Part shown: piece by piece, positions 34,747 through 54,506 of the stretch
How the letters are laid out: every line of letters starts with the position of its first letter
How positions within the stretch are numbered: the first letter of the stretch is position 1
From: Phaeobacter sp. J2-8
GTDB taxonomy: Bacteria; Pseudomonadota; Alphaproteobacteria; Rhodobacterales; Rhodobacteraceae
NCBI RefSeq assembly: GCF_022867865.1
Contig: NZ_JALIEC010000004.1
Location: 248,001-312,000, forward strand
DNA: 64,000 bases
Direction: 5' to 3'
Notes under the pieces: generated by a model
What the model was told of the DNA's origin: nothing
Databases searched by the model: none
Seen by the model: the letters and a program-made list of their open reading frames with translations, nothing else
Program-made: the position numbers and the translations under genes

Positions 34747-35554
34747 GGCATTGCCAACTTGTTCGTCAGACATGACCGGGCTATTTTAGCGGTATGAGAA
34801 TTCCGACCAGTTTGCCTCGCCTTAAGGGCTTCCGCTACCCTCGCGAGATCATCGCTTACGCTGTTTGGGCGTACCACCGCTTCGCGCTGAGCACGGCTGA
34901 CGTTGAAGACTTGCTGGCTGAGCGGGGCGTGATTGTCAGCCGGGAAGCCGTCCGGTTGTGGGTCAATCGGTTTGGTCGCCATTTCGCGAACTGCATCCGG
35001 CGTGATCGCCCTCGTCCCAACGACAAATGGCATCTCGACGAAGTCGTTGTTCCGATCCGCGGCAAGAAGCACTGGCTGTGGCGCGCAATGGACGCGAACG
35101 GCGAGGTTCTCGATATACTTGTGCAAACGCGCAGAAGTGGAAAGGCAGCAAAGAGGTTTTTCAAAAGGCTGGTAGTTCAGTTCGGCGCGCCGAGGGTCGT
35201 GATCACGGATAAATTACGCAGCTACATCAAGCCGATCAAAACGCTGGCGCCGGACGCTGACCACCGCGCTCACAAGCGATTGAATAACGCAATTGAAGGG
35301 TCTCACAGGCTGACACGAAAGCGAGAGAAGATACTCGGGCGGTTCAAATCTCACCGGCAAGCACAGAGATTCCTGACCGCACATGACCCGATCAACCTGA
35401 TCTTTCGTCCCCGCCGTTACAAACTCACCGCAACATCATACCGCCACGCTCGTCACGACGCGTTCAGCCTCTGGGCCGACTACACCGCCGAAATGGTGAC
35501 GTGATCGACCGAACATCAGAACTTTAAAATCCAAGAACAACAACTTGGCAATCC
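34747..35554 (+). mobile_element. IS6-family element, right copy (IS6-2b)
   Basis: 808 bp with ends GGCATTGCCAACTTGTT (34747-34763) and, on the other strand, GGATTGCCAAGTTGTTG (35538-35554). Nearly identical to the left copy at 21934-22742, inverted relative to it. Its right end cuts tctB after 46 codons. No 8-bp target repeats are evident at any of the four outer edges. Confidence 0.87.
34794..35504 (+). CDS. IS6-family transposase (DDE), intact
   Basis: 236 residues. DDE residues: D in DKWHLDEVVVPI (about 79), D in ITDKLRSYIKPI (about 136), E in LNNAIEGSHR (about 165). The helix-turn-helix lies around VEDLLAERGVIVSREAVRLW. The frame is complete where the left copy has an extra base, so this copy could supply transposase for both. 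Confidence 0.92.
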   Translation: MRIPTSLPRLKGFRYPREIIAYAVWAYHRFALSTADVEDLLAERGVIVSREAVRLWVNRFGRHFANCIRRDRPRPNDKWHLDEVVVPIRGKKHWLWRAMDANGEVLDILVQTRRSGKAAKRFFKRLVVQFGAPRVVITDKLRSYIKPIKTLAPDADHRAHKRLNNAIEGSHRLTRKREKILGRFKSHRQAQRFLTAHDPINLIFRPRRYKLTATSYRHARHDAFSLWADYTAEMVT

Positions 35555-35699: not shown

Positions 35700-36239
35700 C
35701 TACTCCGAAATAAAGTCGAGCAGACCACGATAGGCCCGGACGTCGGAGGCGATGCCATCGGCGGTCTCAGTCCCGGTCTTGAATGTCTCGAAGCCGCGGA
35801 ACTTGTTGTTCACGAAATCCTTGAACGTGTCGGATTGCACGGCTTGCGCCAACGCGGATTCCAGCGTCGCCACGGCGTCGGCATCCATGTCGTTCGGCCC
35901 AAAAAACACCGCGGCCTCAACGGCGCTGACGCCATAGCCAAGCGCGTCCAGCGTCGGAATGCCGGGATGCTCCTCGATGCCTTCGGGGTTCAGGGCGGCG
36001 ACGACCTTCAGCGCGCCGTCTTCCATCATCGGCAGCGCGTTCGAGCCCGAAAACGCCAGGTCCACGTGACCACCAAGCACCGCCTGCCGCGCACCGGCCC
36101 CGCCCCGGGTCGGCACGATATTGACAGCGATGTCTTCCTTTTTGCCGACATATTGCATGATTGCCCGGTCCAACGGGATGATCGACGCATAGTTGATCCA
36201 GCCACGTTCCTTGGCGGTTTCAAGCATAACCGCCTGAAA
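35700..36239 (-). pseudogene. TctC 3' half (TTT solute-binding protein), 5' deleted
   Basis: About 178 codons match the C-terminal half of a TctC receptor: IFQAVMLETAKERGWINYASIIPLDRA, IVPTRGGAGARQAVLGGHVDLAFSGSNALP, GIPTLDALGYGV, ending RGLLDFISE at 35700. Signal peptide and first ligand-binding lobe are absent. The break sits 10 bp from the sulfatase stop codon at 36250, so a deletion joined this locus to the sulfatase/otn operon. Confidence 0.8.
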
Positions 36240-36249
36240 AATACAGTTG

Positions 36250-37749
36250 CTATAGCACCTCGATCGCGGCTGGTTTGATTGTGGTCAACAAATGCTGGTG
36301 CGCCTCGGCGTGGGTCATGTAACCCGGCGGCGGGAAATCCATTTCCAGATCCCAGCCATCCCCGGTCTCGGCCATATTCGCCAGTACCCGCGCATCAAGC
36401 TCGGCCTGGACAGTGGCATATGCCGGATCATCCACCAGATTGAATACCTCGTCTGGATCGTTGATCTGATCAAACAAATACAACGGCCGGTCCTTTTTGC
36501 GGACATAAAGCCATTCCGGGGTGCGAATGCCGCGTTCGGGTTTGACGTGCCGTTCCGGGCGGCCGCCAAAATCGGCCTTCATCACCTGATATTGCACATG
36601 ATCGCGCGTGGCGGTGTCGGGGCCGTCCCGCAACAGCGAAAGGTAACTGCGGCCCTGCACATCCTTTGGCACCTCAAGCCCGCATACCTCAAGCAGGGTT
36701 GGCATAGTGTCCACCGCCACATCAACAAGCGACGAGACGCGTTTGTTTTGCGCGACTTTTCCGGGATAGCGCACCATCAAAGGCACATGCGCCGAACTGC
36801 GATAGGCCTGTCGTTTCAAACCGCAATATGACCCATGCTGCCCCAGCATGTCCCCATGATCCGAGAAAAAGATCACCAATGTATCTTCGGCCAATCCCTT
36901 GGCATCCAACCAACTGAGCAGCCGGCCAACGTTGAAATCGATATTCGAAATCATGCCGTAATATTCCGCCACGAATTTGCGAATTTGCTGTTCGGTTTCA
37001 ATTTCGCGGTCCTGGCCTTCGATTTTGTCAGCTTTGGACCGTTCGCCAAACCGGTCATCGCCATCAAAATCCAGCAAGGTGCGTTCCTGCGTCCGGCGCT
37101 TTTGCAGCTCGGGATTGGGGGTGCCTTTGGGCAGGGTGATCGCATCGGGATCATACATGTTGCGCCAGTTTTCCGGCATATCCATCGGGAAATGCGGCGG
37201 GCCAAAACAGATATAGGCGTAAAAGGGATCATCGCTTTCGGACTGTACTTTGTCCATGAACTCAATGGCGTGATCGGTCTGAAAATCCGGTTCATAGCGT
37301 TTGCAATGATAGGGTTGATCGGTGTCGCGGTAAAAAATCGCGTCCATATATTGATGGCCGCGATTGTAACCGACAAAATGGTCAAACCCCATCCTGTCCG
37401 GGCCCGGCGGCACAAATCCCGGCTTGGGGCCGCCAAACAGATGCCATTTTCCGATATAGCCGGATTGATATCCGATGCTGTTCAGATAGGGTGCCAGCGA
37501 TGGCTGATCGGTGTTGATCGGGAAATGGTTTGAATACAGCCCGGCCTCATGCGCGTATTTCCCGGTCAAGAGCGATGCCCGAAACGGCGTGCACAGCGGA
37601 TAGGACGTGAATGCCTCATCAAAACACACGCCCTCTTGGGCCAGCCGGTCGATATTGGGGGTTTTGACATCGGGATTGCCGGAACATCCCATGCAGTCGT
37701 ACCGCATCTGATCGGCATAGATCATCAGAATATTGGGTTTTTTGCTCAT
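36250..37749 (-). CDS. Sulfatase family hydrolase (Cys-type formylglycine motif CTPFR)
   Basis: 499 residues from ATG 37749 (GAGGGCAAAACC upstream). N-terminal metal site PNILMIYADQMRYDCMG (5-21), formylglycine core SYPLCTPFRASLLTGKY (C about 52, C-x-P-x-R), HFP and IGKWHL motifs, and the second metal pair FFSDHGDMLGQHG (about 296-308). No signal peptide, so it is cytoplasmic, as in choline-sulfatase-like enzymes. It hydrolyses a sulfate (or related phosphonate/phosphate) ester after Cys is converted to formylglycine. It is the last gene of the run that includes tctCBA and otnKCI, 43 bp after otnI; desulfation of the imported substrate is a likely role. Confidence 0.92.
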   Translation of the reverse strand: MSKKPNILMIYADQMRYDCMGCSGNPDVKTPNIDRLAQEGVCFDEAFTSYPLCTPFRASLLTGKYAHEAGLYSNHFPINTDQPSLAPYLNSIGYQSGYIGKWHLFGGPKPGFVPPGPDRMGFDHFVGYNRGHQYMDAIFYRDTDQPYHCKRYEPDFQTDHAIEFMDKVQSESDDPFYAYICFGPPHFPMDMPENWRNMYDPDAITLPKGTPNPELQKRRTQERTLLDFDGDDRFGERSKADKIEGQDREIETEQQIRKFVAEYYGMISNIDFNVGRLLSWLDAKGLAEDTLVIFFSDHGDMLGQHGSYCGLKRQAYRSSAHVPLMVRYPGKVAQNKRVSSLVDVAVDTMPTLLEVCGLEVPKDVQGRSYLSLLRDGPDTATRDHVQYQVMKADFGGRPERHVKPERGIRTPEWLYVRKKDRPLYLFDQINDPDEVFNLVDDPAYATVQAELDARVLANMAETGDGWDLEMDFPPPGYMTHAEAHQHLLTTIKPAAIEVL

Positions 37750-37792
37750 GGTTTTGCCCTCAGAACGTTCAAGGTATGGATTTTCACCGGGG

Positions 37793-38560
37793 TCATTTGG
37801 CCCGGATGGCGCGCAGCCAACCAAGCGATTGATCGGTGTCAGTGGTAGGTTTGTACTCTGCCCCCAGCGGGGCGCTGTATCCAAGGCCAGCGATCACTTC
37901 AAAGATATGGCTGTAATTCACTTCGCCATGGTTCGGCGGGCCGCGATCGGGCACCGAGGCGATTTGAACATGCCCGATCCGCGGCAACAGGTCAGCCAAC
38001 CGATGGGACAGGTCGCCCTCCATCAGCTGAACGTGATAACAGTCGAACATCAGCTTGATATTGGCGGCGGCGACGGCATCGAGGATCGTGACGGCCTGAT
38101 CGGTTGTGGTCAGGAAATACCCCGGCGCATCATAGACATTCAGCGGCTCGATCAGAATGTCGATGCCGGCAGGGCGCGCAAGATCGCAGGCATAGTTCAG
38201 ATTGGCGACAAAGGTGTCATGCGCTGCAGGGCCAGAGGCGAAGCCGGCCATCACATGAATATTCCGTGCCTTTATCTGGCTTGCATAGGTGACGGCCTCG
38301 TCAATCGCGGCGCGGGCCTCAGCCTCGCGACCGGGGAGCGCGGACAGGCCGTTTTCGCCCGCCGCCACATCGCCGCGACTTGTGTTCAGGCCCAGCATGG
38401 CCAGCCCGGTTTGATCCAAGGCGGCGCGCACATCCGCCGCCGCCACATCATAGGGCCAGTGGCATTCCACCGCGTCAAAACCTGCGGCATGGGCCGCATG
38501 AATGGCTCCGGGCAAAGGCCGGTCGTTCCAGAGAAATCCAAGGTTGGCCGAAAATTTCAT
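37793..38560 (-). CDS. otnI: 2-oxo-tetronate isomerase / hydroxypyruvate-isomerase-like protein OtnI
   Basis: 255 residues from ATG 38560, a xylose-isomerase-like TIM barrel: KFSANLGFLWNDRPLPGAI, GFDAVECHWPYD, ILIEPLN with the metal Glu (about 143), FDCYHVQLMEGD (Asp/His about 176-179) and GAEYKPTTDT with the last Glu (about 240). In known otn pathways OtnI interconverts 2-oxo- and 3-oxo-tetronate. The ATG overlaps the otnC stop (ATGA). Operon context (otnK-otnC upstream) makes this clearer than generic hydroxypyruvate isomerase. Confidence 0.87.
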   Translation of the reverse strand: MKFSANLGFLWNDRPLPGAIHAAHAAGFDAVECHWPYDVAAADVRAALDQTGLAMLGLNTSRGDVAAGENGLSALPGREAEARAAIDEAVTYASQIKARNIHVMAGFASGPAAHDTFVANLNYACDLARPAGIDILIEPLNVYDAPGYFLTTTDQAVTILDAVAAANIKLMFDCYHVQLMEGDLSHRLADLLPRIGHVQIASVPDRGPPNHGEVNYSHIFEVIAGLGYSAPLGAEYKPTTDTDQSLGWLRAIRAK

Positions 38561-39207
38561 ACGTCCCACTCCACATCGAATTTGGTGATCAGCGCCTGCA
38601 CCTGGGGTTCGGTCAGCGCGCGCGGCATCAATCCCCGGGTCATCATCGCCAAACGCGCGGTATCCTCTAACTCTTCTATGGCGTTGCAGGTGGCTTCGAT
38701 ATCCTTGCCCGCCACCACGGGGCCATGATTGGCCAACATTACCGCGCTGCGTTTGCCCGCCAATCCGCGCACGGCATCGCCCATCGCCGGATCCCCCGGC
38801 AAAAAGAACGGCAGCAATGTCACCTTGCCCAGCCGCATTATCCCATAGGGCGTCAGCGGCGGCAGAAAATTGTCAGGGTCGACATCCGGCATCATCGACA
38901 AAGCTACGGAATGACAAGAATGCAGATGCACCACCGCGCCTGTTGTGCTGCGGGTGTCATAAGACGCCGAATGCAGCGGCATTTCCTTGGTGGGGCTGTC
39001 CCCGGCGATATGGCGGCCCTGTCCATCAAACCGGCTAAGCCGCCCTGGATCAAGCCGGCCAAAGCTGGTTCCGGTCGGGCTGACCAACAGCCCGCCATCG
39101 GGGGTGCGCGCCGAAATATTGCCGGTCGATCCCCCCGTCAGCCCCCGGTCAAACATCGACCGGGCCAGCAGGCACATCTGATCTCTGAGTGCGTTTTCCT
39201 GGCTCAT
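38557..39207 (-). CDS. otnC: 3-oxo-tetronate 4-phosphate decarboxylase OtnC (class II aldolase fold)
   Basis: 216 residues. Zinc-binding histidines VVHLHSCHSVALS (about 93-98) and H in MLANHGPVVAGKD (about 160); GSTGNISARTPDGGLLVSPTGTSFG near the N-terminus is the class II aldolase/adducin substrate-phosphate loop. The family member next to otnK decarboxylates 3-oxo-tetronate 4-phosphate to dihydroxyacetone phosphate and CO2. It overlaps both neighbours by 4 bp (otnK stop, otnI start), so the three are translationally coupled. Confidence 0.9.
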   Translation of the reverse strand: MSQENALRDQMCLLARSMFDRGLTGGSTGNISARTPDGGLLVSPTGTSFGRLDPGRLSRFDGQGRHIAGDSPTKEMPLHSASYDTRSTTGAVVHLHSCHSVALSMMPDVDPDNFLPPLTPYGIMRLGKVTLLPFFLPGDPAMGDAVRGLAGKRSAVMLANHGPVVAGKDIEATCNAIEELEDTARLAMMTRGLMPRALTEPQVQALITKFDVEWDV

Positions 39208-40475
39208 TCCGCCCCCAGCCGCATTTGCGCATCGCTAAAAAAGCTCTCGGTGCCGAAGTTGCCCGATTTCAGGGTCAGGGCGATCTGATGCCCGCCCGAT
39301 TGACAGAACGTCCAGGGCACCCCCGGCGCAATTTCGGCACCTATATCAAGCTGGGCCACTCCAAGCGCCTTGGTCACTGCGCCCGAGGTTTCGCCCCCCG
39401 CCACAATGACCCGCCGCGCCCCATGATCGCGCGCCGCAATGGCACAGGCGGCCAGCGCCTGTTCGATCATCTCGCCGGTGCGGGCGACGCCGATTTTGTT
39501 CTGCGCCGCTTTGACCCGCGCGGGGTGGGCGGTGGCATAGATCAGCGGCGCCCGGTCCAAATCCTGGGCGGCCAACCAATCCAGCGGCGCGGCGATGCCG
39601 TGGTCGGCGATGGCCAGCGGATCAAGCTGAAACGCCGCTGCGCCGGTCGCGATATAGTGGGCCACCTGTGCGTTGGTCATTGCCGAACAGCTGCCAGACA
39701 GGACAATCGTGCCGGTCCCAATCGCCGGGGTTGCCCTTTTGGCCGCGTCTTTGGACAGGGTGCCATCGGCCAGATACAGCGCGGGCAAAGGCATGGCAAT
39801 TGCGCTGCCCCCGGTGATCAGGGGCATGTCACGACAGGCTGTTGCGATGATTTGCAGGTCTTTGTCCGCCACCGCATCTACCACCACATGCGCCACCCCT
39901 TCGGCCCCAAGCGATGCCAGCTTGCCACGCAGCGCCTGGGCCCCGGTTGCCACGGTCAACCGATCCGCCAACCCAACCGGGCGCGTCACCTGGGGCGCAA
40001 GCAGCCGCATCAGATTGCTGTCCTGCATCGGTGTCAGGGGGTGATCCTTCATCGGGCTTTCCGACAACGGTTGTTGTCCGACAAAGAGATTGCCCATAAA
40101 CACCGCCCGCCCGTTTTCCGGGAAGGCCGGGCAATAGATGGTTTGATCGGTGCCCAGATCGGTCATAAGAGCCTCGGCCACCGGGCCGATATTGCCCTTG
40201 GCCGTGCTGTCAAAGGTTGAGCAATATTTCCAGAAAAACCGTTTTGCGCCCGCCGCTTGCAACCATCTGAGCGCGGCGCGGGTTTCTGCCACTGCCTCGG
40301 TCACCGAGGCGGTGCGCGATTTCAGGGCGATCACCTCGAATGCGGCGGTGTCGGTTGGCGGTGTGGTGGGCACCCCGATCCGAAGCGACACCCGCACGCC
40401 GCTGCGCGCCAGCAATCCGGCCAAATCCGTGGCCCCGGTGAAATCATCCGCGATGCAGCCCAGTATCGTTGTCAT
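39204..40475 (-). CDS. otnK: 3-oxo-tetronate kinase OtnK (DUF1537)
   Basis: 423 residues, the two-domain DUF1537 kinase. N-terminal ILGCIADDFTGATDLAGLLARSGV (substrate domain), FWKYCSTFDSTAKGNIGP (about 95-110), and C-terminal nucleotide domain with VLSGSCSAMTNAQV and VAGGETSGAVTKALG. It phosphorylates 3-oxo-tetronate at C4 with ATP. It is preceded by ltnD and followed, with a 4-bp overlap, by otnC: the standard ltnD-otnK-otnC-otnI order for threonate or erythronate. Confidence 0.92.
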   Translation of the reverse strand: MTTILGCIADDFTGATDLAGLLARSGVRVSLRIGVPTTPPTDTAAFEVIALKSRTASVTEAVAETRAALRWLQAAGAKRFFWKYCSTFDSTAKGNIGPVAEALMTDLGTDQTIYCPAFPENGRAVFMGNLFVGQQPLSESPMKDHPLTPMQDSNLMRLLAPQVTRPVGLADRLTVATGAQALRGKLASLGAEGVAHVVVDAVADKDLQIIATACRDMPLITGGSAIAMPLPALYLADGTLSKDAAKRATPAIGTGTIVLSGSCSAMTNAQVAHYIATGAAAFQLDPLAIADHGIAAPLDWLAAQDLDRAPLIYATAHPARVKAAQNKIGVARTGEMIEQALAACAIAARDHGARRVIVAGGETSGAVTKALGVAQLDIGAEIAPGVPWTFCQSGGHQIALTLKSGNFGTESFFSDAQMRLGAE

Positions 40476-40479
40476 GGCC

Positions 40480-41377
40480 CTATGCCTCGCCCGGGAGGGT
40501 CAGCCCGGCATTGCGCGCATAGACTTTGGCCACCGCTGCATCGTCTTCACCGCCATGGCCCATGCCCGCCGCGGCCACGAATTGTTGCAACGCGGTTGCC
40601 GTGATGGGGGCGCTGAATTGCGCGGATTTGGCAATATCAAGCACAATCCCAAGGTCTTTGGGCCAGATATTGACCGAACTCAGCGGCGTGTAATCCCCGG
40701 CCACAATATGCGGCGCGCGGTTTTCCAGCATCCAGCTGGTGCCAGGCGCATTTGCTGATCACCTCGACGAATTTGTCGGGTGTCACACCCTGGGTCATGC
40801 CAAAGGTCAGCGCCTCGGCCATGGTGGCGATATGCACACCTGCCAACAGCTGGTTGACGGCCTTCATTGCGCTGCCAGCACCAGCCGCATCGCCCAGCTC
40901 GAAAACCGTTTCGGCAATGCTGTCCAACAGCGGGCGCGCGGCGGCGAATGTTGCGGATAAGCCCGAGGCCATGATGCTGAGCTGGCCCGAAGCGGCCTTG
41001 GCCGCCCCGCCCGAGATCGGCGCATCCAGATAAAGCACACCCGCATCCGCGCAGCGCGCCGCCATATCGCGGGCAAAGGCGGGCGGTACGGTGGCACAGG
41101 CCAACACCACCGCACCGGGTTTCAGCTGGTCAACGATCCCGGCATCGCCAAACAGAACGCTTTCGGTTTGGGCGGCGTTCAGCACCACGACAGCCACCGC
41201 ATCCAGAGTGCCGGCCACCGCAGCCAAAGCGCCGGTTTGGCCGCCCTCGGCCTGAAATCTGGCGACCTGATCGGGATTGATATCCGCGCCCCAGACGCGA
41301 TGCCCGCGACGAAGCGCCGCACCTGCAATGCCAAATCCCATCGAGCCCAAGCCAATGACGGCTACATTCATTTTCAT
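40480..41377 (-). pseudogene. ltnD: L-threonate/D-erythronate-type dehydrogenase LtnD with a frameshift
   Basis: ATG 41377 (GGAGAAGACAAT upstream) opens a beta-hydroxyacid dehydrogenase: AVIGLGSMGFGIAGAALRRGH (NAD motif), DAPISGGAAKAASGQLSIM (substrate loop), and GSAMKAVNQLLAGVHIATMAEAL with the catalytic Lys (about 173). Near 40744 an extra C (GCCTGG for GCTGG) throws the frame; the other frame continues GTSWMLENRAPHIVAGDYTP and VNIWPKDLGIVLDIAKS to the TAG at 40480. If real, about 85 C-terminal residues that close the active site are lost, removing the first step of the otn pathway. A second, truncated copy is at 54507. Confidence 0.87.
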
Positions 41378-41394
41378 ATTGTCTTCTCCATGGT

Positions 41395-42234
41395 TCAGCC
41401 CGTTCCCAAAACCGACCACAGCATGCGCAGCGAGGTCAGAAACAGGAACAGAGCAAAAAGTTTCTTGAGCCGGTCCGGGTTGAGGCGATGCGCCAGATGA
41501 GAGCCATGCGGCGCGGTGAATACGCTGGTCGAAAAGATCAGGATCGCGGCGGGCAGGTTGACATAGCCGATGGAAAACGGCGGGCGCGCCGGCTGGCCCA
41601 GCCCGGACCAGATGAAGCCCGACACCGCGGGCACCGCGATCACCAATCCAAACGCCGCCGCTGTGCCCACCGCCCGATGCACCGGCACCGAGAACATCGT
41701 CAGGATCGGCACTGACAACGTGCCGCCGCCAATCCCCATCAGCGCCGAGAACAGGCCAATCCCCGACGGGATGGACGATTTGGCAACCCGATTGCGGGGC
41801 AACCCATTGGACAGGGTGATCTTTTTCGGCAAGGCCATGTTGAGCGCGACGATCATCGCGACCACGCCAAAAAACAACGTCAGAAAACCAGAGGACACAA
41901 AGCGCGACAGAACGCCCCCCACCAACGCGCCGGCACAGATCAGCGGCGCCCAGGCCCAAAGCATTTCCACGTCAATCGCGCCTTTGCGGTGGTGTGACCG
42001 GGCCGAAGCAATCGAAGTTGGGATGATCGTGGCCAGCGATGTGCCAACGGCCAGGTGCATGGCCACGGCGGTGGGCACGTCCAACAAGTCAAACAGCCAA
42101 AACAACACCGGCACGATGACAATGCCGCCCCCGACCCCCAAAAGACCGGCCAACACCCCGGCAACCGCGCCGGTCGCCAAGAGCCCGACAATCAATGCGG
42201 CCAGCATGGCGGCAGAATACTGATCGGTCATCAT
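41395..42234 (-). CDS. TSUP (TauE/SafE) family membrane exporter
   Basis: 279 residues, about eight membrane segments in two repeats: VAGVLAGLLGVGGGIVIVPVLFWL (about 23-46) and GLFSALMGIGGGTLSVPILTMF (about 157-178), the paired Gly-rich motifs of the family. Members export sulfite, sulfoacetate or other organosulfur anions, though many are uncharacterised. It overlaps the hydrolase stop by 4 bp and lies among sulfatase and TTT genes, which supports export of an inorganic or organic sulfur anion (inference). Paralogue at 52856-53686. Confidence 0.92.
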   Translation of the reverse strand: MMTDQYSAAMLAALIVGLLATGAVAGVLAGLLGVGGGIVIVPVLFWLFDLLDVPTAVAMHLAVGTSLATIIPTSIASARSHHRKGAIDVEMLWAWAPLICAGALVGGVLSRFVSSGFLTLFFGVVAMIVALNMALPKKITLSNGLPRNRVAKSSIPSGIGLFSALMGIGGGTLSVPILTMFSVPVHRAVGTAAAFGLVIAVPAVSGFIWSGLGQPARPPFSIGYVNLPAAILIFSTSVFTAPHGSHLAHRLNPDRLKKLFALFLFLTSLRMLWSVLGTG

Positions 42235-43040
42235 GCGACATCCTTCATGAATTCAGCAATAATTTCATTGGTTTGCGCGTTGTTCCAAACCATCTGATGG
42301 GTGCCGTCGATCAATTGAAATCGGCAGTTGGGAATGCGGCGGGCCATCGCACGCTGGGCGGCGACAGGGGCCTGGCCATCCTGTTGTCCGGCCAGAACCA
42401 GCGTTGGCGCGGTGATGTTCGTCAGCCGGTCAAAGGTGTCATGACACGCGCGCGCCGCCAATTGCCGCCGTCGCCCGATGGCGGCGCCGGGTTCATCGGC
42501 AAAGCGCGTCTGCGCCGCGACGCGGGCGGTGATCCGGGCGGCGGCCTCTTTGGGGTGGGTGGCCTGCCAGTCGGGGGTAAAGCCAAGATCGACGATCTCC
42601 AATCCCTTGCGGGCGCGTTCGCGCGGCGGCAGGTCGGCAAGGTTCTGGATCGGATAGGAGGATCCCCCTTCCCCGCCCGCCGTTGTGGCCACCAAAGCCA
42701 GCTTTTGCACGCGCTTGGGCCAGCCCAGCGCGATTTCCTGGGCCACCATGCCGCCAAAGGAGTACCCAACAATGCGCACGCGATCCCAGCCGTAAGCGTC
42801 CAGAATGGCGATGGCATCCTCGGCATAGTCCTGCATGCTGTAGGGCCTGTCGGGTTTGTCGCTTTGGCCCATGCCGCGTTGATCATAACTCAGCACCTCA
42901 AATTGCGCGGCCAATGGCCCGTTCAGTGGCGTTTTGCGCTTTCGAAGGTCTGCACCGCTGCCTGTCAGGAACAAAAGCCGTGGCCCGGCCCCGGCAACGC
43001 CGGTCATAAAGCGCAGCCCATTCACGACAACCGGTCTCAT
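42231..43040 (-). CDS. Alpha/beta hydrolase
   Basis: 269 residues. Oxyanion GSGADLR near 28, nucleophile elbow VGYSFGGMVAQ (Ser about 92), acid Asp in LAGQQDGQAPV (about 217) and His in DGTHQMVW (about 244). No signal peptide. It may be an esterase or lactonase that opens an ester or lactone before oxidation by LtnD; related hydrolases are common next to sugar-acid pathways (inference). It overlaps tctA by 4 bp on one side and the TSUP gene on the other. Paralogue, frameshifted, at 53683-54494. Confidence 0.9.
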   Translation of the reverse strand: MRPVVVNGLRFMTGVAGAGPRLLFLTGSGADLRKRKTPLNGPLAAQFEVLSYDQRGMGQSDKPDRPYSMQDYAEDAIAILDAYGWDRVRIVGYSFGGMVAQEIALGWPKRVQKLALVATTAGGEGGSSYPIQNLADLPPRERARKGLEIVDLGFTPDWQATHPKEAAARITARVAAQTRFADEPGAAIGRRRQLAARACHDTFDRLTNITAPTLVLAGQQDGQAPVAAQRAMARRIPNCRFQLIDGTHQMVWNNAQTNEIIAEFMKDVA

Positions 43041-44581
43041 TCTGCCAGCTCGTCAATTGGCGTGTCGGTGGTCGATTGACGGGCTGGGGATAGGCGCGCG
43101 GCCTGAAGTTTTTTCCAGATCCTCTGACCCGAGATCAGCACAGCAATCGCGAGAAACGCAATGGCCCAGGGGCGTTGGAAAAAGATCAGCCAACCGCTGT
43201 TGGACAAAAGCAGGCTTTGGCGGAATGCCTCTTCGGCACCGGGGGCCAGCACAAAGGCGATGATAAACGCCGCAGGCGAAAAATCATGTTTGCGCATCAG
43301 ATACCCCAGCAGCCCCGCCGCGCACATGATCATGATATCAAAGATATTTGTGCGCGCGGAATAGGCCGAGATGATGCAAGTCAGAAAGATGTAAGGATAG
43401 ATCAGACGCGGCGGCACCATGGCGATGACCCGGCCCACAAGGGGACTTCCAAAGTAGCCAATGACCCCGTAAAGCGCGATGCCAAGCAATCCGGCGGCAA
43501 ACAGACCAAAGATCAGCTCTCTTGAGGTGTCAAAGATCGACGGGCCGACCGGGATGCCATGGATCAGGAACACACCGATCAGGATAGCAGCAATTGTGCT
43601 GCCGGGAACACCCAGCGCCAACAGCGGAATCATCGTCGGGCCGGACACGGCGTTGTTGGCGGATTCCGGGGCGGCGATGCCTTCGACAATGCCGGTGCCC
43701 CATTTCTCGGGGTTTTTTGAGCGGCGTTTTTCTTCGCCATAGGCGGCGAAACCGGCAACGGCGGATCCAAGCCCGGGCAGAATGCCAATAACAGACCCAA
43801 TCAAGGATAAGCGCAGCATCACCGGCAGGCACCGGATGAATTCCGGCATGGTGAAACGCGCGGCATCGGGATCGTCGCTGGGCGCGTTTTTCTGGTGCGT
43901 TTGCTGTTTGCGGGCGCTTTCGATCTGAATCGCCAGTTCGGACAACACGAAAATCCCCAGCAACAGCGGAATCAGCGCAAGACCGGATTGAAATTCAAGC
44001 ACGCCAAAATCCAAACGTGGTTCGGACGAAATCGGATCGATGCCAATCATCGCCACCAAAAATCCAAGCACCGTTGCCAACAGCCCCTTGATGATCGAAT
44101 TGCCGGTGACCGAGCTGATCACGATAAAGGCCATCATATAGACCGCGAAATATTCCGGCGGGCCAAAGGCTTCGGTCACGGACGCAATGGCCACAGCACC
44201 AAAGATCAGGATGAGTTCGCCCACGGTATCGCCGATGACCGAGGCAATTGTCGCCACTTTCAGCGCCTTGCCGGTTTTGCCGGCGCGCGTCATCGGATAG
44301 CCATCGCTCAGGGTGGCCGCCGAGGCCGCCGTGCCCGGCGTGTTGAACAGGATTGCGGAAATCGAGCCGCCGAACCGGCCGGATTTGCCGATCACATACA
44401 AAAATGCCAGCGCGGACAGCGGATCAAGGTAAAATGTCACCGGCACCAGCATCGCAATCGCGGCCGCCGCCGTCAGCCCCGGAATGGCGCCAACAATCAC
44501 CCCGACAAAGGCCGCCAGAACAACAAATCCAAGCGCTGTCGGGTTGGAAAACAGATAAGCAAATCCGTTGAGAATATCCAT
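43037..44581 (-). CDS. tctA: Tripartite tricarboxylate transporter permease TctA
   Basis: 514 residues with about 12 membrane segments. Diagnostic repeats: VGAIPGLTAAAAIAMLVP, FGGSISAILFNTPGTAASAATLSDGYPM, IGILPGLGSAVAGFAAYGEEKR and PESANNAVSGPTMIPLLALGVPGS. It uses the periplasmic receptor encoded at 45146-46126 to import a carboxylate by cation symport. It lies 10 bp after tctB and overlaps the hydrolase by 4 bp. Confidence 0.96.
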   Translation of the reverse strand: MDILNGFAYLFSNPTALGFVVLAAFVGVIVGAIPGLTAAAAIAMLVPVTFYLDPLSALAFLYVIGKSGRFGGSISAILFNTPGTAASAATLSDGYPMTRAGKTGKALKVATIASVIGDTVGELILIFGAVAIASVTEAFGPPEYFAVYMMAFIVISSVTGNSIIKGLLATVLGFLVAMIGIDPISSEPRLDFGVLEFQSGLALIPLLLGIFVLSELAIQIESARKQQTHQKNAPSDDPDAARFTMPEFIRCLPVMLRLSLIGSVIGILPGLGSAVAGFAAYGEEKRRSKNPEKWGTGIVEGIAAPESANNAVSGPTMIPLLALGVPGSTIAAILIGVFLIHGIPVGPSIFDTSRELIFGLFAAGLLGIALYGVIGYFGSPLVGRVIAMVPPRLIYPYIFLTCIISAYSARTNIFDIMIMCAAGLLGYLMRKHDFSPAAFIIAFVLAPGAEEAFRQSLLLSNSGWLIFFQRPWAIAFLAIAVLISGQRIWKKLQAARLSPARQSTTDTPIDELAE

Positions 44582-44591
44582 GGTTTTGCTC

Positions 44592-45071
44592 CTACCAGAT
44601 TAGATAATTGGAAATGTCGAGGATGGTTCCGGGCGGGTCGTAGATGCCCATGCCTTTGATAAACAACAGGTAAAATACGATCGCGCAGGCCAAGCCATTG
44701 GCCAGTGACAGCCGCCAGGAATTGGCAAACAGGCGAAAGATGACAACGCCGCCGATCGCCGTGGCCAACAAGTAGCCAAGCCATCCAATCATCAGCCCCG
44801 ACAGCACCGCCAGCATCAGCATCGGCCCTGCCTGAACCAAAAGGTTTCTGGCCGTGATGTCATGCGATGTTTCTTCTGGGTCTGCTGTGCGCCAATCGAC
44901 CAGCATCAAAAGCAACGTCAGCCCAATCGTAGCAATCGCAACCGACACCGGCACCAAACGCGGCCCGATTGAATCCGCAAACCCCGCCGGAATCTTGATT
45001 GCCTCAAAAAGAAAAACCAACCCAAACACAAGGATAACTACATTGGTCAGCCAGCCAATATTTCGATCCAC
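44592..45071 (-). CDS. tctB: Tripartite tricarboxylate transporter small subunit TctB
   Basis: 159 residues with four predicted membrane segments (about 8-25, 40-57, 80-105, 118-138), the usual TctB layout; FGPRLVP-like GPRLVPVSVA after the first helix is typical. It forms the membrane part with TctA. A strong hairpin with a T-rich run separates it from tctC upstream. Confidence 0.9.
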   Translation of the reverse strand: MDRNIGWLTNVVILVFGLVFLFEAIKIPAGFADSIGPRLVPVSVAIATIGLTLLLMLVDWRTADPEETSHDITARNLLVQAGPMLMLAVLSGLMIGWLGYLLATAIGGVVIFRLFANSWRLSLANGLACAIVFYLLFIKGMGIYDPPGTILDISNYLIW

Positions 45072-45109
45072 TTTTTGACTCCCCCACTGTCATTCCAAAA
45101 AAACTGAAA

Positions 45110-45138
45110 GGCCCGGGCGTCCCCTATGCGCCCGGGCC
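45110..45138 (-). terminator. Attenuator/terminator between tctC and tctB
   Basis: On the minus strand GGCCCGGGCG and CGCCCGGGCC form a 10-bp GC stem with a 9-base loop, followed by TTTCAGTTTTTTT. Placed 8 bp after the tctC stop and before tctB, it should terminate part of the transcripts or protect the tctC mRNA end, giving more receptor than permease. Confidence 0.75.
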
Positions 45139-45145
45139 ATCCGGC

Positions 45146-46126
45146 TTAGTTTCCGTTCAGTTGCGGAAGGATTTTGCGAACGTTTTGCTGAATTGTCTCG
45201 GCTTGGGCCGGTCCTTCGGACGCGGGTACAAAGGCCACCGGGAACAACAGCTTATCCATCGCCGCCTGATAGCTTTCGCTGGCGGTGGCCTGTTCCACGG
45301 CCGCGGCTAGGGTGGCAAGCACATCGTCGGGCACATCCGCCGGTGCCAGAACGCCAACCGGGCTGTCAATCGCGATGTATTCGATGCTTTCTTCGCCTGC
45401 TGCGGGCACCTCTTGGTCAATCAGATCGGCCTTGCTCTGGCGCAACACCCCCAAAACCCGCATTTTCTTGCCGAAATTGATGCGGGTGTTCATGTTTTGA
45501 ATGCCAAAATCCACCTGACCGCCGATGATCGCGATGCGCGATTTGGCCGACCCACTAAAAGGAACCGCCTGAACATCAAGCCCGTTTGCCTCGACAAACC
45601 CAACGCCAGAGGCCATGAACGCCGACCCGCTGCCACCATGGCCCCAGCGCAATTCGCCGGGGCGTGCCTTGGCATCATCGATCAGATCCTGAAGCGTTTG
45701 ATAGGGGCTGTCGGTGGGCACCGCGATGGCCGGCACCAGCCGCGTGACTGTGCCCGCCTGTTTGAAATCAGTGAAAACATCGACGTCGGATTGGCCGAGT
45801 TCCTGTTTCAACACCATGGTCCCGACAGAACCATACCACAGCGTATAGCCATCCGACCGGCTGTCTGCCACGAACTTGGCGGCAATCATGCTTGCGGCGC
45901 CGGGTTTGTTGACCACAACAACGGGTTTGCCGAGGATCGATTGCAATTCCGCGGCCATCGCCCGCCCGGTCAGATCAGTGCCGCCCCCGGCATTGAACCC
46001 GATCACAAGGTTGATTGGCTTGACCGGATAATCGGCCAGCGCCGGACCTGCGACAAACGTGGCAAGAGCAAGTGCCGCGCCCCCAAGAGCGGCGGTCACA
46101 GAGCGACGGTTAAACGTCCTAATCAT
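45146..46126 (-). CDS. tctC: TTT solute-binding protein TctC
   Basis: 326 residues from ATG 46126 with GGAGGAAAACCCA upstream. Signal peptide about 1-31 (NRRSVTAALGG... ending PALA; the RR could suggest Tat). The mature part starts DYPVKPINLVIGFNAGGGTDLTGRAMA, a clear Bug/TctC signature, with two alpha/beta lobes. It binds the substrate in the periplasm. Ligand unknown; the operon's enzymes point to a C4 sugar-acid derivative. Confidence 0.95.
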   Translation of the reverse strand: MIRTFNRRSVTAALGGAALALATFVAGPALADYPVKPINLVIGFNAGGGTDLTGRAMAAELQSILGKPVVVVNKPGAASMIAAKFVADSRSDGYTLWYGSVGTMVLKQELGQSDVDVFTDFKQAGTVTRLVPAIAVPTDSPYQTLQDLIDDAKARPGELRWGHGGSGSAFMASGVGFVEANGLDVQAVPFSGSAKSRIAIIGGQVDFGIQNMNTRINFGKKMRVLGVLRQSKADLIDQEVPAAGEESIEYIAIDSPVGVLAPADVPDDVLATLAAAVEQATASESYQAAMDKLLFPVAFVPASEGPAQAETIQQNVRKILPQLNGN

Positions 46127-46224
46127 TGGGTTTTCCTCCTCCATAAAGTTGTAACCAGCCGGGGCAAAAGATGCGGCGCGTGGCCAGCGCCCCTTGATCC
46201 AGGCTGAGAAAATCGGCGCTTTGA

Positions 46225-47712
46225 TCAGCGCTCCATTGTCCATTCGATTTGTTGAATTTCCACCTTGGGCGATGGCGGCCAGCCATCCCCGCGTTGTGAA
46301 TTCAAACTGCGGTGTGGGGCCCAGCGGTATTCCCGATCGGGTTTCCCCACCAGCGCACCATTGTCGATCCAATCAAGATCAACGCCGTACATTTCGCCAA
46401 TCAAAGTGTCCTGCAAGCGCGCAAGCGTCTCGGCATGGGCCGGATCGCGCGCCAGATCCACCATTTCACGCGGATCCTGGTCCAGATCAAACAATTGGGA
46501 ATGGTTGCCAACCGGGTAATAGATCAGCTTATAGCGCGCATCCCGGATCATCCGGCTTGATGTGTCGTCTTCGCCGCATTCGCCATAGATGTGATCATGG
46601 GTTTGCGCGCCCACCATCGAGATTCCGTCAACCGTTTCCGGCGGCTCGATGTCACACAGATCCAGCAGGGTTGGCATCACATCGGCAAACCCGACAAGGC
46701 GGTCATCAACAACACCCTCGGTGACCTTTGGGTTACCTTTGTTGGGCGACAGGATCATCGGAATATTCGCGCTGCTTTCATAAAATATCCGCTTGGCGGC
46801 CATGTCATGATTGCCCAGCATATCCCCATGATCCGAAGTGAACATGATGATCGTGTCGTCCAGGATACCCTCTAACCGCAGGGTGCCGACAAGATAGCGG
46901 ATTTGGTAATCGATCTGGCTGCACAGCGCATAAAAGGCGCGTTTGGCGGCCTGCATCTGGGACTTGGTATACAGGTTGGTGCGGCTCAGTTGGGCCTGAA
47001 TGGCAAACGGGCGGTCGGCCCCGTCCTTGGCCCAATCGCCGACATAGGGCGCTTCGATTTCGACATCGCGGTACAGATCGATGAACGCCTGTGGCGGCAC
47101 AAGCGGCGGATGCGGGTGACGAAACCCAAGATACCAAAACCCCGGTTTGTTCGGATCACGGCGTTTGATCGTGCGGGCCATCATCCGGCCTGCCCAATTG
47201 GTGGCGTGGTGTTCTTCGTCCAGATGCCAGGGCCGCCAGTTGTATTGGTTGTTTGACATGCCATGATCGAACTGACGGCCCGGCAAACCCTGATCGCCAA
47301 GATAGATGTCATAATCGTCCAGCGTGCCCCATTGGGGGCGGCCTTCGTCGTCCAACAGCACTGAATCAAAGCCCACCCGGTCCCGTTGCGGATGCACATG
47401 CAGTTTGCCCACGGCATCGGCCTGATACCCGGCATCCCGGAACGCTTGGGCCATGGTTGTCACATCTGGCATGGTCAGCTGGTCGTTGAACACGCGGTCG
47501 CCGTGGGTGCGGGGCGATTGCCCGGTCATCAGGGTGCGACGCGCCGGAATACAGACCGGACATTCGGAATAGGCATTGGAATATCGCACGCCACAGGCCG
47601 AAAGCTCGTTCAGGCCCGGGGTGATGATCGATGAATTTCCAGCAAAGCCAAGATGTTCTGCCGCCCAGTGATCGGTGCAGATCAGCAGAACGTTTGGACG
47701 CGTATGTGTCAT
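46225..47712 (-). CDS. Sulfatase family hydrolase (Cys-type formylglycine motif CIPAR)
   Basis: 495 residues from ATG 47712 (AAGGAC upstream). Metal site PNVLLICTDHWAAEHLG (5-21), formylglycine core ECPVCIPARRTLMTGQ (C about 51), VGKLHVHP, and FTSDHGDMLGNHD (about 293-305). No signal peptide. It differs from the operon's other sulfatase in the active-site motif (CIPAR against CTPFR) and has its own C-terminal part, so the two probably have different substrates or sequential roles. First gene of the minus operon, 110 bp from the divergent LysR gene and 98 bp before tctC. Confidence 0.92.
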   Translation of the reverse strand: MTHTRPNVLLICTDHWAAEHLGFAGNSSIITPGLNELSACGVRYSNAYSECPVCIPARRTLMTGQSPRTHGDRVFNDQLTMPDVTTMAQAFRDAGYQADAVGKLHVHPQRDRVGFDSVLLDDEGRPQWGTLDDYDIYLGDQGLPGRQFDHGMSNNQYNWRPWHLDEEHHATNWAGRMMARTIKRRDPNKPGFWYLGFRHPHPPLVPPQAFIDLYRDVEIEAPYVGDWAKDGADRPFAIQAQLSRTNLYTKSQMQAAKRAFYALCSQIDYQIRYLVGTLRLEGILDDTIIMFTSDHGDMLGNHDMAAKRIFYESSANIPMILSPNKGNPKVTEGVVDDRLVGFADVMPTLLDLCDIEPPETVDGISMVGAQTHDHIYGECGEDDTSSRMIRDARYKLIYYPVGNHSQLFDLDQDPREMVDLARDPAHAETLARLQDTLIGEMYGVDLDWIDNGALVGKPDREYRWAPHRSLNSQRGDGWPPSPKVEIQQIEWTMER

Positions 47713-47770: not shown

Positions 47771-47822
47771 ATGACGATTTCTTCGCTTAACATACGAATA
47801 TGGAATGTTTTGGAGGCCTGTA

Positions 47823-48731
47823 ATGACCAAACGTCTGGGATTGCGCCAGCTGCGTGCCTTTCACGCGGTTATCGTCACCGGAAGCGTGACAGCCGCCGCC
47901 GAGCGGCTGAACCTGACACAACCGGCGATCAGCAAACAGCTGAGCGATTTGGAGCACGCCATTCGCCTGCGGTTGTTTGATCGGCGCAGCGGGCGCGCCG
48001 CGACGCCGACGCAACAGGGGCTGGATTTTTTCCGCGCGATCGAGGCCACCATTGTCGGGCTCGAAGAGATTGAGACAATCGCCAGCGATATCGAGCATCG
48101 CAACACCACCCGGATCAGAATTGCCGCAACGCCGCCGCTGATCAACAGCGCGCCGCTGATGGCGGCGACATCGCGGTTTATCGCGGATCACCCGGATGTC
48201 AGGATTGCGCTTGAACCCAGGCACCGGATCGAAATCGAAGATTGGGTGGTAGCCCGGCACATTGACCTTGCGCTGGCGCTTTTGCCGTCAAACCATCCCG
48301 GGCTGACAGAAACGCCCCTGGTCGAGACCCGCGCCGTTGTGGTGATGCCCGCCGATCACCGGCTGGCCGCCCAAGAGACCGTGTCCCCGGAGGATATTCA
48401 AGACGACCGCCTGATCCTGCCAAGCCGTCAGCCGCTGAGGACGCGGATCGATGCGGCGCTGAACAAGGCGGGGCTGCATGTGTCGGCTCAGTTGGAATCC
48501 TCGTCCGCGATCACCTGTTGTCGGATGGCGGCATCGGGGCTGGGCGTTGCGCTGTGTGATCCGTTCAGCCCGACATCCTTTGTCGGAAGTGGCCTGATCA
48601 CCCGCCCGTGGCGGCCCGAGGTCCATTTGACCTATGGCATCCTTCAGAGCAAACAACACGCATTGGACAATCGGACCAAGCGGATCATGAGCTATCTGAA
48701 GGTGGAATTTGAACGGTTTGCCACCGCGTAA
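47823..48731 (+). CDS. LysR-family regulator of the sulfatase/TTT/otn operon
   Basis: 302 residues from ATG 47823 with TTGGAGGCCTGTA upstream. Helix-turn-helix LRQLRAFHAVIVTGSVTAAAERLNLTQPAISKQLSDLEHAI (about 6-46); effector domain with IRIAATPPLINSAPLMAATSRF and LPSRQPLRTRIDAAL. Divergent from the first sulfatase gene, so it probably activates that operon. The LysR and the LacI gene at 48762 converge on a shared hairpin. Confidence 0.92.
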   Translation: MTKRLGLRQLRAFHAVIVTGSVTAAAERLNLTQPAISKQLSDLEHAIRLRLFDRRSGRAATPTQQGLDFFRAIEATIVGLEEIETIASDIEHRNTTRIRIAATPPLINSAPLMAATSRFIADHPDVRIALEPRHRIEIEDWVVARHIDLALALLPSNHPGLTETPLVETRAVVVMPADHRLAAQETVSPEDIQDDRLILPSRQPLRTRIDAALNKAGLHVSAQLESSSAITCCRMAASGLGVALCDPFSPTSFVGSGLITRPWRPEVHLTYGILQSKQHALDNRTKRIMSYLKVEFERFATA

Positions 48732-48761: not shown

Positions 48762-49778
48762 CTAGGTTGTGCTGCCTTCGATCAATTCCAAATCGAGCTG
48801 AAACGTCTTTTTGTCGGGCATCTCTGCGCGACTGACCTTTTTTTGCAGCAACTCCCCGGCCAGTCGCCCGATTTGGTATCGTGGCGTGGCAATTGTTGTC
48901 AGGCGCGGTGTGATCGATTGGCACATTTCAATCCCGTTGAAACCGGCAAGCGCGATGTCCTCTGGCACGTGGATGCCATTGGCCTGACAGTAGAACAAAG
49001 CCCCCAGGGCAAGGTCGTCATTGGCAAAAAACACCGCGTCAATGTTCAGGTCACGATCCAACAGTTGCTTGATCCCGGTTGCGCCGAGTTCAAGAGATGA
49101 CTCGCCCTCTAGGATAACCGACGTCACAAGCGGATTGTTCAGTCGGGCCAGTTCGGTTTCAAATGCCACACGCCGTTTGGCCGATCGTTTCGGCCGTTCG
49201 CCCCATGCGCCAACATAGGCAATCCGGCCATAGCCCTTGGCAACCAGATGCCGGGCAATAAGCTCGCCTGCTTCGCTCATGGAATTGCCGACAGCCATAT
49301 CGATGGCATCGCCGTCGGTGTCCATGACTTCGACAATGGGGCCGGCAAAATGCGACAGCAGTTCCTTGGTCGTGTCGGAATGCTCCAGCCCGCTCAGGAT
49401 GATGCCGGCGGGGTTCCACGTCAGCATATCGCGCAGTATCGCCTCTTCGTTGGCGTCGTCATATTTGGTCATGCCAAGAACAAGGCGCAGCTGGGATCCT
49501 TGGAGCGCGTCATCAATGCCATCGACGATATTCGGGAACACGTGGTTGCTCATCGATGGGACGATCACAGTGATCAGGTCGGTGGCCTGGCCGCGCAAGG
49601 ATCCGGCGATCCGATTGCGGCGATAGCCGATGATCCGGGCCGAGCGTTCCACCTTTTCCCGCAGAGCTTTGGATACGTTTGGCGCGTCGCTCATCGCGCG
49701 CGATGCCGAAATGACGCTGACACCGCAGTGGGCTGCCACGTCCTTTAGCGTTGGCGGGCGACTGTCCTTGCTCATCAT
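48762..49778 (-). CDS. LacI-family transcriptional repressor
   Basis: 338 residues; ATG ATG at 49778/49775 after GGAGGAGAA. LacI headpiece PTLKDVAAHCGVSVISASRAMSDAPNVSKALREKV (about 9-43), then the periplasmic-binding-protein-like core with IITVIVPSMSN-type start, AVFFANDDLALGALFYCQANG and IPEDIALAGFNG-like stretches. It is divergent from the second tctCBA set; two tandem 17-bp sites in the shared region are the likely operators. The ligand is probably the sugar acid imported by that TTT. Confidence 0.95.
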   Translation of the reverse strand: MMSKDSRPPTLKDVAAHCGVSVISASRAMSDAPNVSKALREKVERSARIIGYRRNRIAGSLRGQATDLITVIVPSMSNHVFPNIVDGIDDALQGSQLRLVLGMTKYDDANEEAILRDMLTWNPAGIILSGLEHSDTTKELLSHFAGPIVEVMDTDGDAIDMAVGNSMSEAGELIARHLVAKGYGRIAYVGAWGERPKRSAKRRVAFETELARLNNPLVTSVILEGESSLELGATGIKQLLDRDLNIDAVFFANDDLALGALFYCQANGIHVPEDIALAGFNGIEMCQSITPRLTTIATPRYQIGRLAGELLQKKVSRAEMPDKKTFQLDLELIEGSTT

Positions 49779-49821
49779 TTCTCCTCCGTCCGGCAGCCAG
49801 AGTATGACGGGTGAATTTTAG

Positions 49822-49859
49822 ATTGACAACGTTACCAAGAAAATTGACAACGTTACCAA
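49822..49859. promoter_or_regulatory. Two tandem LacI-type operators
   Basis: ATTGACAACGTTACCAA occurs at 49822-49838 and again, identically, at 49843-49859. The core is the palindromic AACGTT expected for LacI-family proteins (TGACAACGTTACCA is nearly self-complementary). The 21-bp centre spacing is two helical turns, favouring side-by-side binding. They lie between the LacI gene and tctC (start 49889). Confidence 0.75.
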
Positions 49860-49888
49860 TGAAGATTCTTTGGGAGGAGACACATCCA

Positions 49889-50836: not shown

Positions 50837-50849
50837 ACTTTATCGACAA

Positions 50850-50880
50850 AGCCGCCCTCGGGTCTGATCCGGGGGTGGCT
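50850..50880 (+). terminator. Hairpin between tctC and tctB (second set)
   Basis: AGCCGCCCTCGG and CCGGGGGTGGCT form a long GC stem with a few non-Watson-Crick pairs, 13 bp after the tctC stop. It lies in the same place as the hairpin in the first set but lacks a T-run, so it may act as an mRNA 3' stabiliser. Confidence 0.4.
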
Positions 50881-50900
50881 GATCAAAAGGATGCAATCCG

Positions 50901-51356
50901 ATGGCACCTGTTTTCACGGAACGTCGTGTTTTTTCGATCATTATTCTGGTTTTGACAGCGGGGCTTGTTGTTTCGACTTTTGGGCTTGATTTTGCGGATC
51001 TTGGTGGCGCCTTCAGCCCGATGTTCTTTCCGCGCATCATTCTTATCGTGTTGCTTGGGTTGGCGGCGCTGAATATGGCGGTTGATCTGCATACACCCGA
51101 AGAACAGTACCCGATAGAGATTTGGCCGGTTGTGATCATCAGCATCGCCTTTGTCGCCTATGTTCTTGTGGTGATGTCGTTGGGCTATTTCATCAGCTCG
51201 TTTGCCGTTGGTTTGGTCATCCTATTGGCGCTTGGCCTGCGCAACCCGTTGCAAATCATTCTCTTTCCGCTCTGTGGCGCTGGCGCGCTTGTCGGGCTTT
51301 TCAATCATGTTTTGAAAATGCCGCTGCCCAGCTCGCCCTTTTTCTGGTGGATATGA
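50901..51356 (+). CDS. tctB: TTT small subunit TctB (second set)
   Basis: 151 residues with four membrane segments; AFSPMFFPRIILIVLLGLAALNMAVDL after the first helix is typical of TctB. It ends with an aromatic-rich tail (KMPLPSSPFFWW). 10 bp before tctA. Confidence 0.9.
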   Translation: MAPVFTERRVFSIIILVLTAGLVVSTFGLDFADLGGAFSPMFFPRIILIVLLGLAALNMAVDLHTPEEQYPIEIWPVVIISIAFVAYVLVVMSLGYFISSFAVGLVILLALGLRNPLQIILFPLCGAGALVGLFNHVLKMPLPSSPFFWWI

Positions 51357-51366
51357 AAGCGAACCG

Positions 51367-52854: not shown

Positions 52855-52855
52855 C

Positions 52856-54494: not shown

Positions 54495-54506
54495 AGGATT
54501 TCCGAA

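Follow-up and report, generated by a model that had tools for sequence, protein, structure and literature searches.

In choline-sulfate utilisation with the BetC-type cytoplasmic choline sulfatase, an intact small sulfate ester is imported, hydrolysed by a formylglycine (FGly) sulfatase in the cytoplasm, and its backbone is catabolised; the importer and the backbone pathway of that system are other than those of the locus described here. The degradation of L-threonate proceeds in four steps, catalysed by LtnD, OtnI, OtnK and OtnC (Zhang et al. 2016, as described in an excerpt of PMC12540250). The stretch of 64,000 nucleotides from Phaeobacter sp. J2-8 (family Rhodobacteraceae, class Alphaproteobacteria) analysed here (GCF_022867865.1, NZ_JALIEC010000004.1), referred to as the window, has genes for each of them, arranged as ltnD-otnK-otnC-otnI. 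The window differs from the described pathway by two sulfatase genes and a tripartite tricarboxylate transporter (TTT) importer in the same operon, by a frameshifted ltnD and by an OtnI scoring below the cut-off of its model. We propose, with a probability of roughly 0.5, that the operon has an accessory, catabolic role and handles a sulfate ester with a carbon skeleton that is converted into L-threonate; the simplest candidate is sulfated L-threonate itself. The enzyme families and the otn pathway are already known; what appears to be new is the joining of sulfatases to otn genes. A search of an open library holding part of the literature yielded no report joining the two. The papers found there with otnK and otnC do not mention a sulfatase, and an excerpt of PMC13209695 names both an L-threonate cluster and sulfatases, but not in connection with each other.

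Composition of the operon

The window corresponds to positions 248001-312000 of a 468,337-base contig (C12) in a genome of 4.8 Mb and 17 contigs. Since a RepC replication gene is present on the same contig, C12 is probably a plasmid or chromid. Protein families were assigned with Pfam profiles and NCBIfam models, using the cut-offs of the models. The eleven minus-strand genes that the first-pass annotation had placed at 36250-47712 were confirmed in order and coordinates, as was the divergent LysR gene:

46225..47712, minus strand: sulfatase B (sulfB), cytoplasmic-type FGly sulfatase with CIPAR motif (PF00884, 138 bits; active-site columns conserved; 30% identity to 7oz8)
45146..46126, minus strand: TctC, substrate-binding protein of the TTT importer, with a signal-peptide-like N terminus as judged by eye (PF03401, 117 bits)
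44592..45071, minus strand: TctB (PF07331)
43037..44581, minus strand: TctA (PF01970, 441 bits; 83% identity to TctA of the Granulosicoccus cassette L012)
42231..43040, minus strand: alpha/beta hydrolase (PF00561; nearest NCBIfam model 3-oxoadipate enol-lactonase, below cut-off)
41395..42234, minus strand: TSUP (TauE/SafE) permease (PF01925, 179 bits)
40637..41377, minus strand: ltnD (L-threonate dehydrogenase), N-terminal part ahead of the frameshift (NF043037 profile positions 2-212 of 297, 271.8 bits)
40480..40731, minus strand: ltnD, C-terminal part in a different frame (74-residue piece, 86% identity to the C terminus of the intact LtnD of L009 and L015)
39204..40475, minus strand: otnK, 3-oxo-tetronate kinase (NF043035, 542.6 bits, cut-off 350)
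38557..39207, minus strand: otnC (NF043034, 286.2 bits, cut-off 250)
37793..38560, minus strand: otnI, 2-oxo-tetronate isomerase-like (NF043033, 284.6 bits, cut-off 325)
36250..37749, minus strand: sulfatase A (sulfA) with CTPFR motif (PF00884, 197 bits; active-site columns conserved)
47805..48731, plus strand: LysR-type regulator, divergent from sulfB (PF00126 and PF03466)

The gene order in the direction of transcription is thus sulfatase B, tctC, tctB, tctA, alpha/beta hydrolase, TSUP, ltnD, otnK, otnC, otnI, sulfatase A. The short gaps and 4-base overlaps were also confirmed: the ten junctions measure, from 5' to 3', 98, 74, 10, -4, -4, 17, 4, -4, -4 and 43 bases, so that a single transcription unit for the eleven genes is plausible. 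A terminator scan of both strands returned 23 sites, compared with 15.1 (standard deviation 3.7) in shuffled sequences, and no single site is evidence by itself.

Both sulfatases keep the six active-site column blocks that were compared (Asp, Cys of the CxPxR motif, Lys-His, His, Asp-His, Lys), while sharing 26% identity with each other. Neither carries a signal peptide as judged by eye, which supports the predicted cytoplasmic location, and the genome contains two genes for formylglycine-generating enzyme (FGE; two PF03781 matches above cut-off). In the structural model of sulfatase B (mean predicted local distance difference test score 76, predicted template modelling score 0.83), the first strand comprises residues 7-13. 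Its nearest relatives of solved structure, by sequence and by fold, are BT1918 (family S1_46; 7oz8, 30% identity) and an Enterococcus faecium arylsulfatase (9koq, 29%), entries titled as a gut-microbe carbohydrate sulfatase and an arylsulfatase, respectively. The sulfatase also differs from that of choline-sulfate utilisation, with 24-26% identity to the solved choline sulfatases of Ensifer, and matches the phosphonate hydrolases 2w8s and 2vqr at 22-23%. Among the NCBIfam models, sulfatase B scored highest against one for arylsulfatases (410 bits, cut-off 481). The PehA model for phosphonate monoester hydrolases, whose cut-off is 900 bits, gave 221 bits for sulfatase A and 156 bits for sulfatase B.

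OtnK and OtnC score above the cut-offs of their NCBIfam models and qualify as orthologues; for OtnI, the 2-oxo-tetronate isomerase model is the top NCBIfam match. The cut-off of 350 for NF043037 applies to the whole protein, of which the N-terminal part of LtnD is only a portion. In relatives, LtnD is encoded by a single intact frame of 296-300 residues (L009, L015 and L046 among them), and the frameshift in the window may be a young mutation or an assembly error. Elsewhere in the genome, locus L032 has a second ltnD-otnK-otnC-otnI set, its frames unbroken, and locus L033 a third otnK, a more distant one; no sulfatase lies near either of these otnK loci.

Recurrence of the sulfatase-threonate linkage

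A collection of species genomes was scanned with sulfB peptide patterns, whose reach is limited to close relatives, yielding 18 loci, of which nine reached at least 76% identity. A search of 394 family genomes added G201 and a plasmid search added Paracoccus seriniphilus, giving twelve sulfB genomes including the window. The arrangement LysR/sulfB-tctC-tctB-tctA-ltnD-otnK-otnC-otnI was intact in Paracoccus seriniphilus DSM 14827 (plasmid p420573; L046), P. onchidii Z330 (L015) and Rhodobacteraceae bin.54 (L009, also listed as L090 and G125). In 4 of 12 genomes, or 3 of 11 without the window, the gene for sulfatase B therefore belongs to a run of genes that also includes those for a TTT and the otn enzymes. 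A further genome, CAR3_bin_1 (L011, also listed as G209), contains a decayed otnI about 180 bases past sulfB (tblastn E 1e-17). The seven unlinked genomes are Planktotalea, Tepidamorphus, Granulosicoccus, the alphaproteobacterial bins L013 and L014, a Geminicoccaceae bin and G201. A LysR homologue (46-63% identity) is divergent from sulfB in L009, L010, L011, L012 and L015, and a LysR gene occupies the equivalent place beside sulfB in L046. A shared LysR operator was dropped as a candidate: the alignment of the seven lysR-sulfB intergenic regions is weak, with column identities averaging 53%.

How often sulfatases accompany otnK at all was determined for 119 otnK loci of the family (60 + 59), sampled with up to about 10 kb on each side, some flanks being shortened by contig ends; sulfatases in these flanks were detected with a purpose-built profile. 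Only three loci (bin.54, L101 and L170) contained any sulfatase, one of them, bin.54, in the operon. The sulfatase of L101 lies 6.9 kb from otnK and that of L170 about 3 kb from otnI, and both are of other types. At class level, 2 of 20 otnK loci (L111 and L112), from one genus, had a sulfatase. In both genomes, it is encoded by a PF00884-type gene of a different kind, placed divergently about 0.8 kb from otnK-otnC. The sulfatases of L101, L170, L111 and L112 share 28-29% identity with their best match among the query sulfatases; only that of bin.54 is of the sulfB type. Given these counts (3/119 and 2/20), sulfatases are not a normal part of otn loci, and the possibility that they are a general component of otn operons was rejected. 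For a 4 Mb genome with 1-3 otnK genes, we estimate from the coordinates alone that sulfB would have an otnK at a distance of 10 kb or less by chance in about 0.5-1.5% of cases. Sulfatases near otnK are rare in general, yet the linkage to sulfB recurs, which is more than chance.

The history of the linkage was followed in three trees. In the OtnK tree (63 rows), the four linked loci fall in three places, with three label changes. In a joined OtnK-OtnC-OtnI tree of 28 loci, selected for having all three genes close together and an OtnK more than 60% identical to a query, a single clade of the four linked loci was rejected (approximately unbiased test, p = 0.011), and the partner of bin.54 is the sulfatase-free locus L094 (support 100/99). 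The tree of sulfB itself places the linked sequences from these loci with those of CAR3_bin_1, Planktotalea and Tepidamorphus in a clade of seven (97/98), and the linked sulfB genes as a single clade were also rejected (p = 0.0106). This pattern is compatible with joining on several occasions, or with exchange of the otn genes inside a kept operon; either would favour function over mere common descent. The TTT type differs as well: TctA of the window has 35-36% identity to TctA of the other three linked loci, indicating that the importer varies and the sulfatase and otn genes are retained, and it is closer (60%) to TctA of a separate TTT-sulfatase cassette adjoining on the P. seriniphilus plasmid. 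Upstream of a TTT-sulfatase cassette on this plasmid (L046:620-6327), genes for an arylsulfatase, an FGGY kinase, a 2-hydroxyacid dehydrogenase and a class II aldolase are found. With recurrence in three other genomes, different TTT types and otn genes that are not one clade, the claimed functional linkage is supported for one sulfatase (sulfB), the TTT importer and LtnD-OtnK-OtnC-OtnI.

Related cassettes and neighbouring genes

The first-pass annotation had given two further genes of the operon roles in sulfur chemistry: the TSUP permease was to export the freed sulfur anion, and the hydrolase was to open an ester. Both roles were weakened, since relatives of the two genes also occur near otn genes without a sulfatase: the hydrolase in L075, TSUP in L097 and in L150 (42% identity), and both in L174 and at 49811-54881 of the window. 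No relative of either was found in the other three sulfB-otn loci (L009, L015 and L046). The two proteins are read as otn accessories not specific to the sulfate step, with lactone opening and anion movement as candidate functions.

Genes for sulfatase B also occur with a TTT and without otn genes in Tepidamorphus (L010), Granulosicoccus (L012; sulfB-TTT-sulfA) and G201 (L041; TTT-MBL hydrolase-sulfA-sulfB, MBL denoting metallo-beta-lactamase). In Tepidamorphus, the order is sulfB-TctB-TctA, with a beta-propeller lactonase and TctC across lysR. The Granulosicoccus cassette keeps the order of the window (LysR 46%, sulfatase B 81%, TctC 69%, TctB 47%, TctA 83% and sulfA-type sulfatase 63% identity) and differs from it by having no hydrolase, TSUP or otn relative between tctA and sulfA. 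Because this cassette shows the same order without otn relatives, the window operon looks like a cassette of this kind (sulfB-TTT-sulfA) in which the genes hydrolase-TSUP-ltnD-otnK-otnC-otnI stand as a block after tctA and before sulfA. Sulfatase A itself may have been acquired separately, since it is closer to the copies in a second cassette of the same genome (L031; 81%, at G000:C12:102301-103791) and in CAR3_bin_1 (80%) than to that of Granulosicoccus (63%).

The second cassette belongs to a recurring TTT-PdxA-sulfatase-sulfA type (L031, at G000:C12:95-105 kb, L034 and L039). It is adjoined in L031 by genes for a sugar-acid dehydratase and a DapA-like protein and by a SulP permease piece, and is possibly a pathway for another sulfated sugar acid. 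A D-threonate pathway was rejected for this type: PdxA, which is one and the same gene in L011 and L039, fell short of the cut-off of each NCBIfam model that it matched (at best 241 vs 290 bits), and no otnK relative was seen in the three stretches. In L036, L037 and L038, a sulfA-type sulfatase gene (54-55%) adjoins a TctA gene, with split transketolase genes alongside in L037. The 4.8 Mb genome of strain J2-8 has 36 PF00884 matches, several of which are paired pieces on contigs C3, C14 and C17, pointing to sulfatase gene decay or assembly errors.

Directly downstream of sulfA, a tctC fragment and an IS240-type transposase gene mark an eroded end of the operon. Beyond lysR lies a second, divergent and decayed operon (48762-54881; lacI/tctC-tctB-tctA-TSUP-hydrolase-ltnD, with the hydrolase gene broken and ltnD truncated), which contains no sulfatase. 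Both features, as well as the frameshift in ltnD, had been overlooked by the first-pass annotation. The genes concerned are:

34794..35504, plus strand: IS240-type transposase at the downstream end (PF13610)
35700..36227, minus strand: tctC fragment lacking its 5' part (match to PF03401 starts at profile position 106)
48762..49778, minus strand: LacI regulator beside the second operon (PF00356, PF13377)
49811..52854, plus strand: second TTT, tctC, tctB and tctA (PF03401, PF07331, PF01970)
52856..53686, plus strand: second TSUP, 58% identity to the first (PF01925; tblastn)
53710..54479, plus strand: second alpha/beta hydrolase, frame-disrupted (two overlapping tblastn pieces in different frames)
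54507..54881, plus strand: second ltnD, truncated next to a transposase, 58% identity to the first (PF03446)
54917-55897: transposase adjoining the second ltnD (PF00665)

In L075, related genes for LacI (72%) and TctC (80%) are followed by those for a hydrolase, LtnD, OtnK and OtnC.

Proposed function and its alternatives

If the operon serves the use of a sulfated L-threonate, TctC would bind the sulfated acid and TctAB would bring the intact ester into the cell. Desulfation would take place in the cytoplasm, mainly by sulfatase B and also by sulfatase A (perhaps at a second position or on a related ester), with the formylglycine of both supplied by FGE. LtnD would oxidise L-threonate to 2-oxo-tetronate, OtnI would isomerise this to 3-oxo-tetronate, OtnK would phosphorylate the latter, and OtnC would decarboxylate the product to dihydroxyacetone phosphate (DHAP). 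The LysR protein would sense the substrate or a product. Because ltnD of the window is frameshifted, the LtnD step in strain J2-8 would have to be supplied by the intact copy at the other locus; alternatively, decay of the operon is just setting in. More tentatively, the recurring loci may represent a dedicated pathway for sulfated C4 sugar acids in marine Alphaproteobacteria, comprising TTT import, the new sulfB clade and otn catabolism to DHAP; it would have come together on more than one occasion and be carried in part on plasmids.

Several observations weigh against a threonate-sulfate operon. In the window, ltnD is not intact, its N- and C-terminal parts lying in different frames, and sulfA stands beside otn genes there only, among the loci examined. 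No sulfatase was present in the flanks of 116 of the 119 sampled family otnK loci; the refuting condition named by the first-pass annotation, that homologous operons usually lack the sulfatases, thus applies to otnK loci at large but not to the sulfB clade. Seven of the twelve genomes with sulfB at 76% identity or more lack otn genes, whether intact or decayed, in the stretch around it; in six of these seven, otnK is found elsewhere in the genome, and Planktotalea has none. No otnK was found in the genome of CAR3_bin_1. As to the trees, well-supported branches force one label change in the OtnK tree and two in the joined tree, equally few changes are needed in 35 and 77, respectively, of 500 label shuffles, and the clade tests rest on four linked loci, the window among them. 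The literature searched did not contain the exact phrases that would denote sulfated forms of threonate, erythronate or sugar acids.

Alternatively, the replicon may gather sugar-acid and sulfatase cassettes, with the sulfatases acting on another substrate and the otn enzymes on unsulfated threonate, which either this importer or a different one would take up. The transposases within the window and near it, RepC on the contig, the many PF00884 matches (36, some being pieces of one gene), the further TTT-sulfatase cassette in the genome and the fact that most otn and most sulfB loci are unlinked all suit this explanation, which we consider unlikely, if still a serious contender, as the order sulfB-TTT-ltnD-otnK-otnC-otnI is kept in three other genomes although their TTT is of another type and the otn genes do not form one clade, and as chance proximity of sulfB and otnK is, by our own estimate, low (about 0.5-1.5%).

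The substrate might instead be a larger sulfate ester, such as a sulfated aldonolactone, ascorbate 2-sulfate or a threonate ester, from which desulfation and opening of a ring or ester by the hydrolase would release L-threonate for the otn enzymes. L-Threonate is a product of ascorbate degradation in plants (according to an excerpt of PMC12540250), and hydrolases do accompany TTT-sulfatase genes, being enol-lactonase-like in the window, a beta-propeller lactonase in Tepidamorphus (L010) and of the MBL fold in G201 (L041). We regard such a substrate as doubtful: the P. seriniphilus operon has no annotated hydrolase, no relative of the window-type hydrolase was found in L009, L015 or L046, this hydrolase type also occurs in sulfatase-free otn loci, and nothing in these operons was recognised as encoding an oxidative conversion of ascorbate to threonate. 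That both PF00884 proteins are phosphonate or phosphate ester hydrolases, in an operon importing a phosphorus ester of a C4 acid, is very improbable, since, despite the formylglycine motif shared with phosphonate monoester hydrolases, the presence of 2w8s and 2vqr among the structural matches of sulfatase B (22-23%) and the PehA match of sulfatase A (221 bits), the PehA cut-off of 900 bits is not reached, sulfatase B is nearer to the sulfatases 7oz8 and 9koq (29-30%), and the NCBIfam model that it matches best is one for arylsulfatases.

Since the intact operon is present in two named strains, P. seriniphilus DSM 14827 and P. onchidii Z330, the question is directly testable. The recurring linkage of a sulfatase, an importer and the threonate enzymes suggests that sulfated C4 acids may be an undescribed food source. 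If the proposed function is correct, the sulfatase clade would gain a testable small-molecule substrate, and sulfated C4 sugar acids would be predicted as nutrients for such bacteria; if a dedicated pathway exists, sulfated tetronates would be a marine carbon and sulfur compound that has gone unrecognised.

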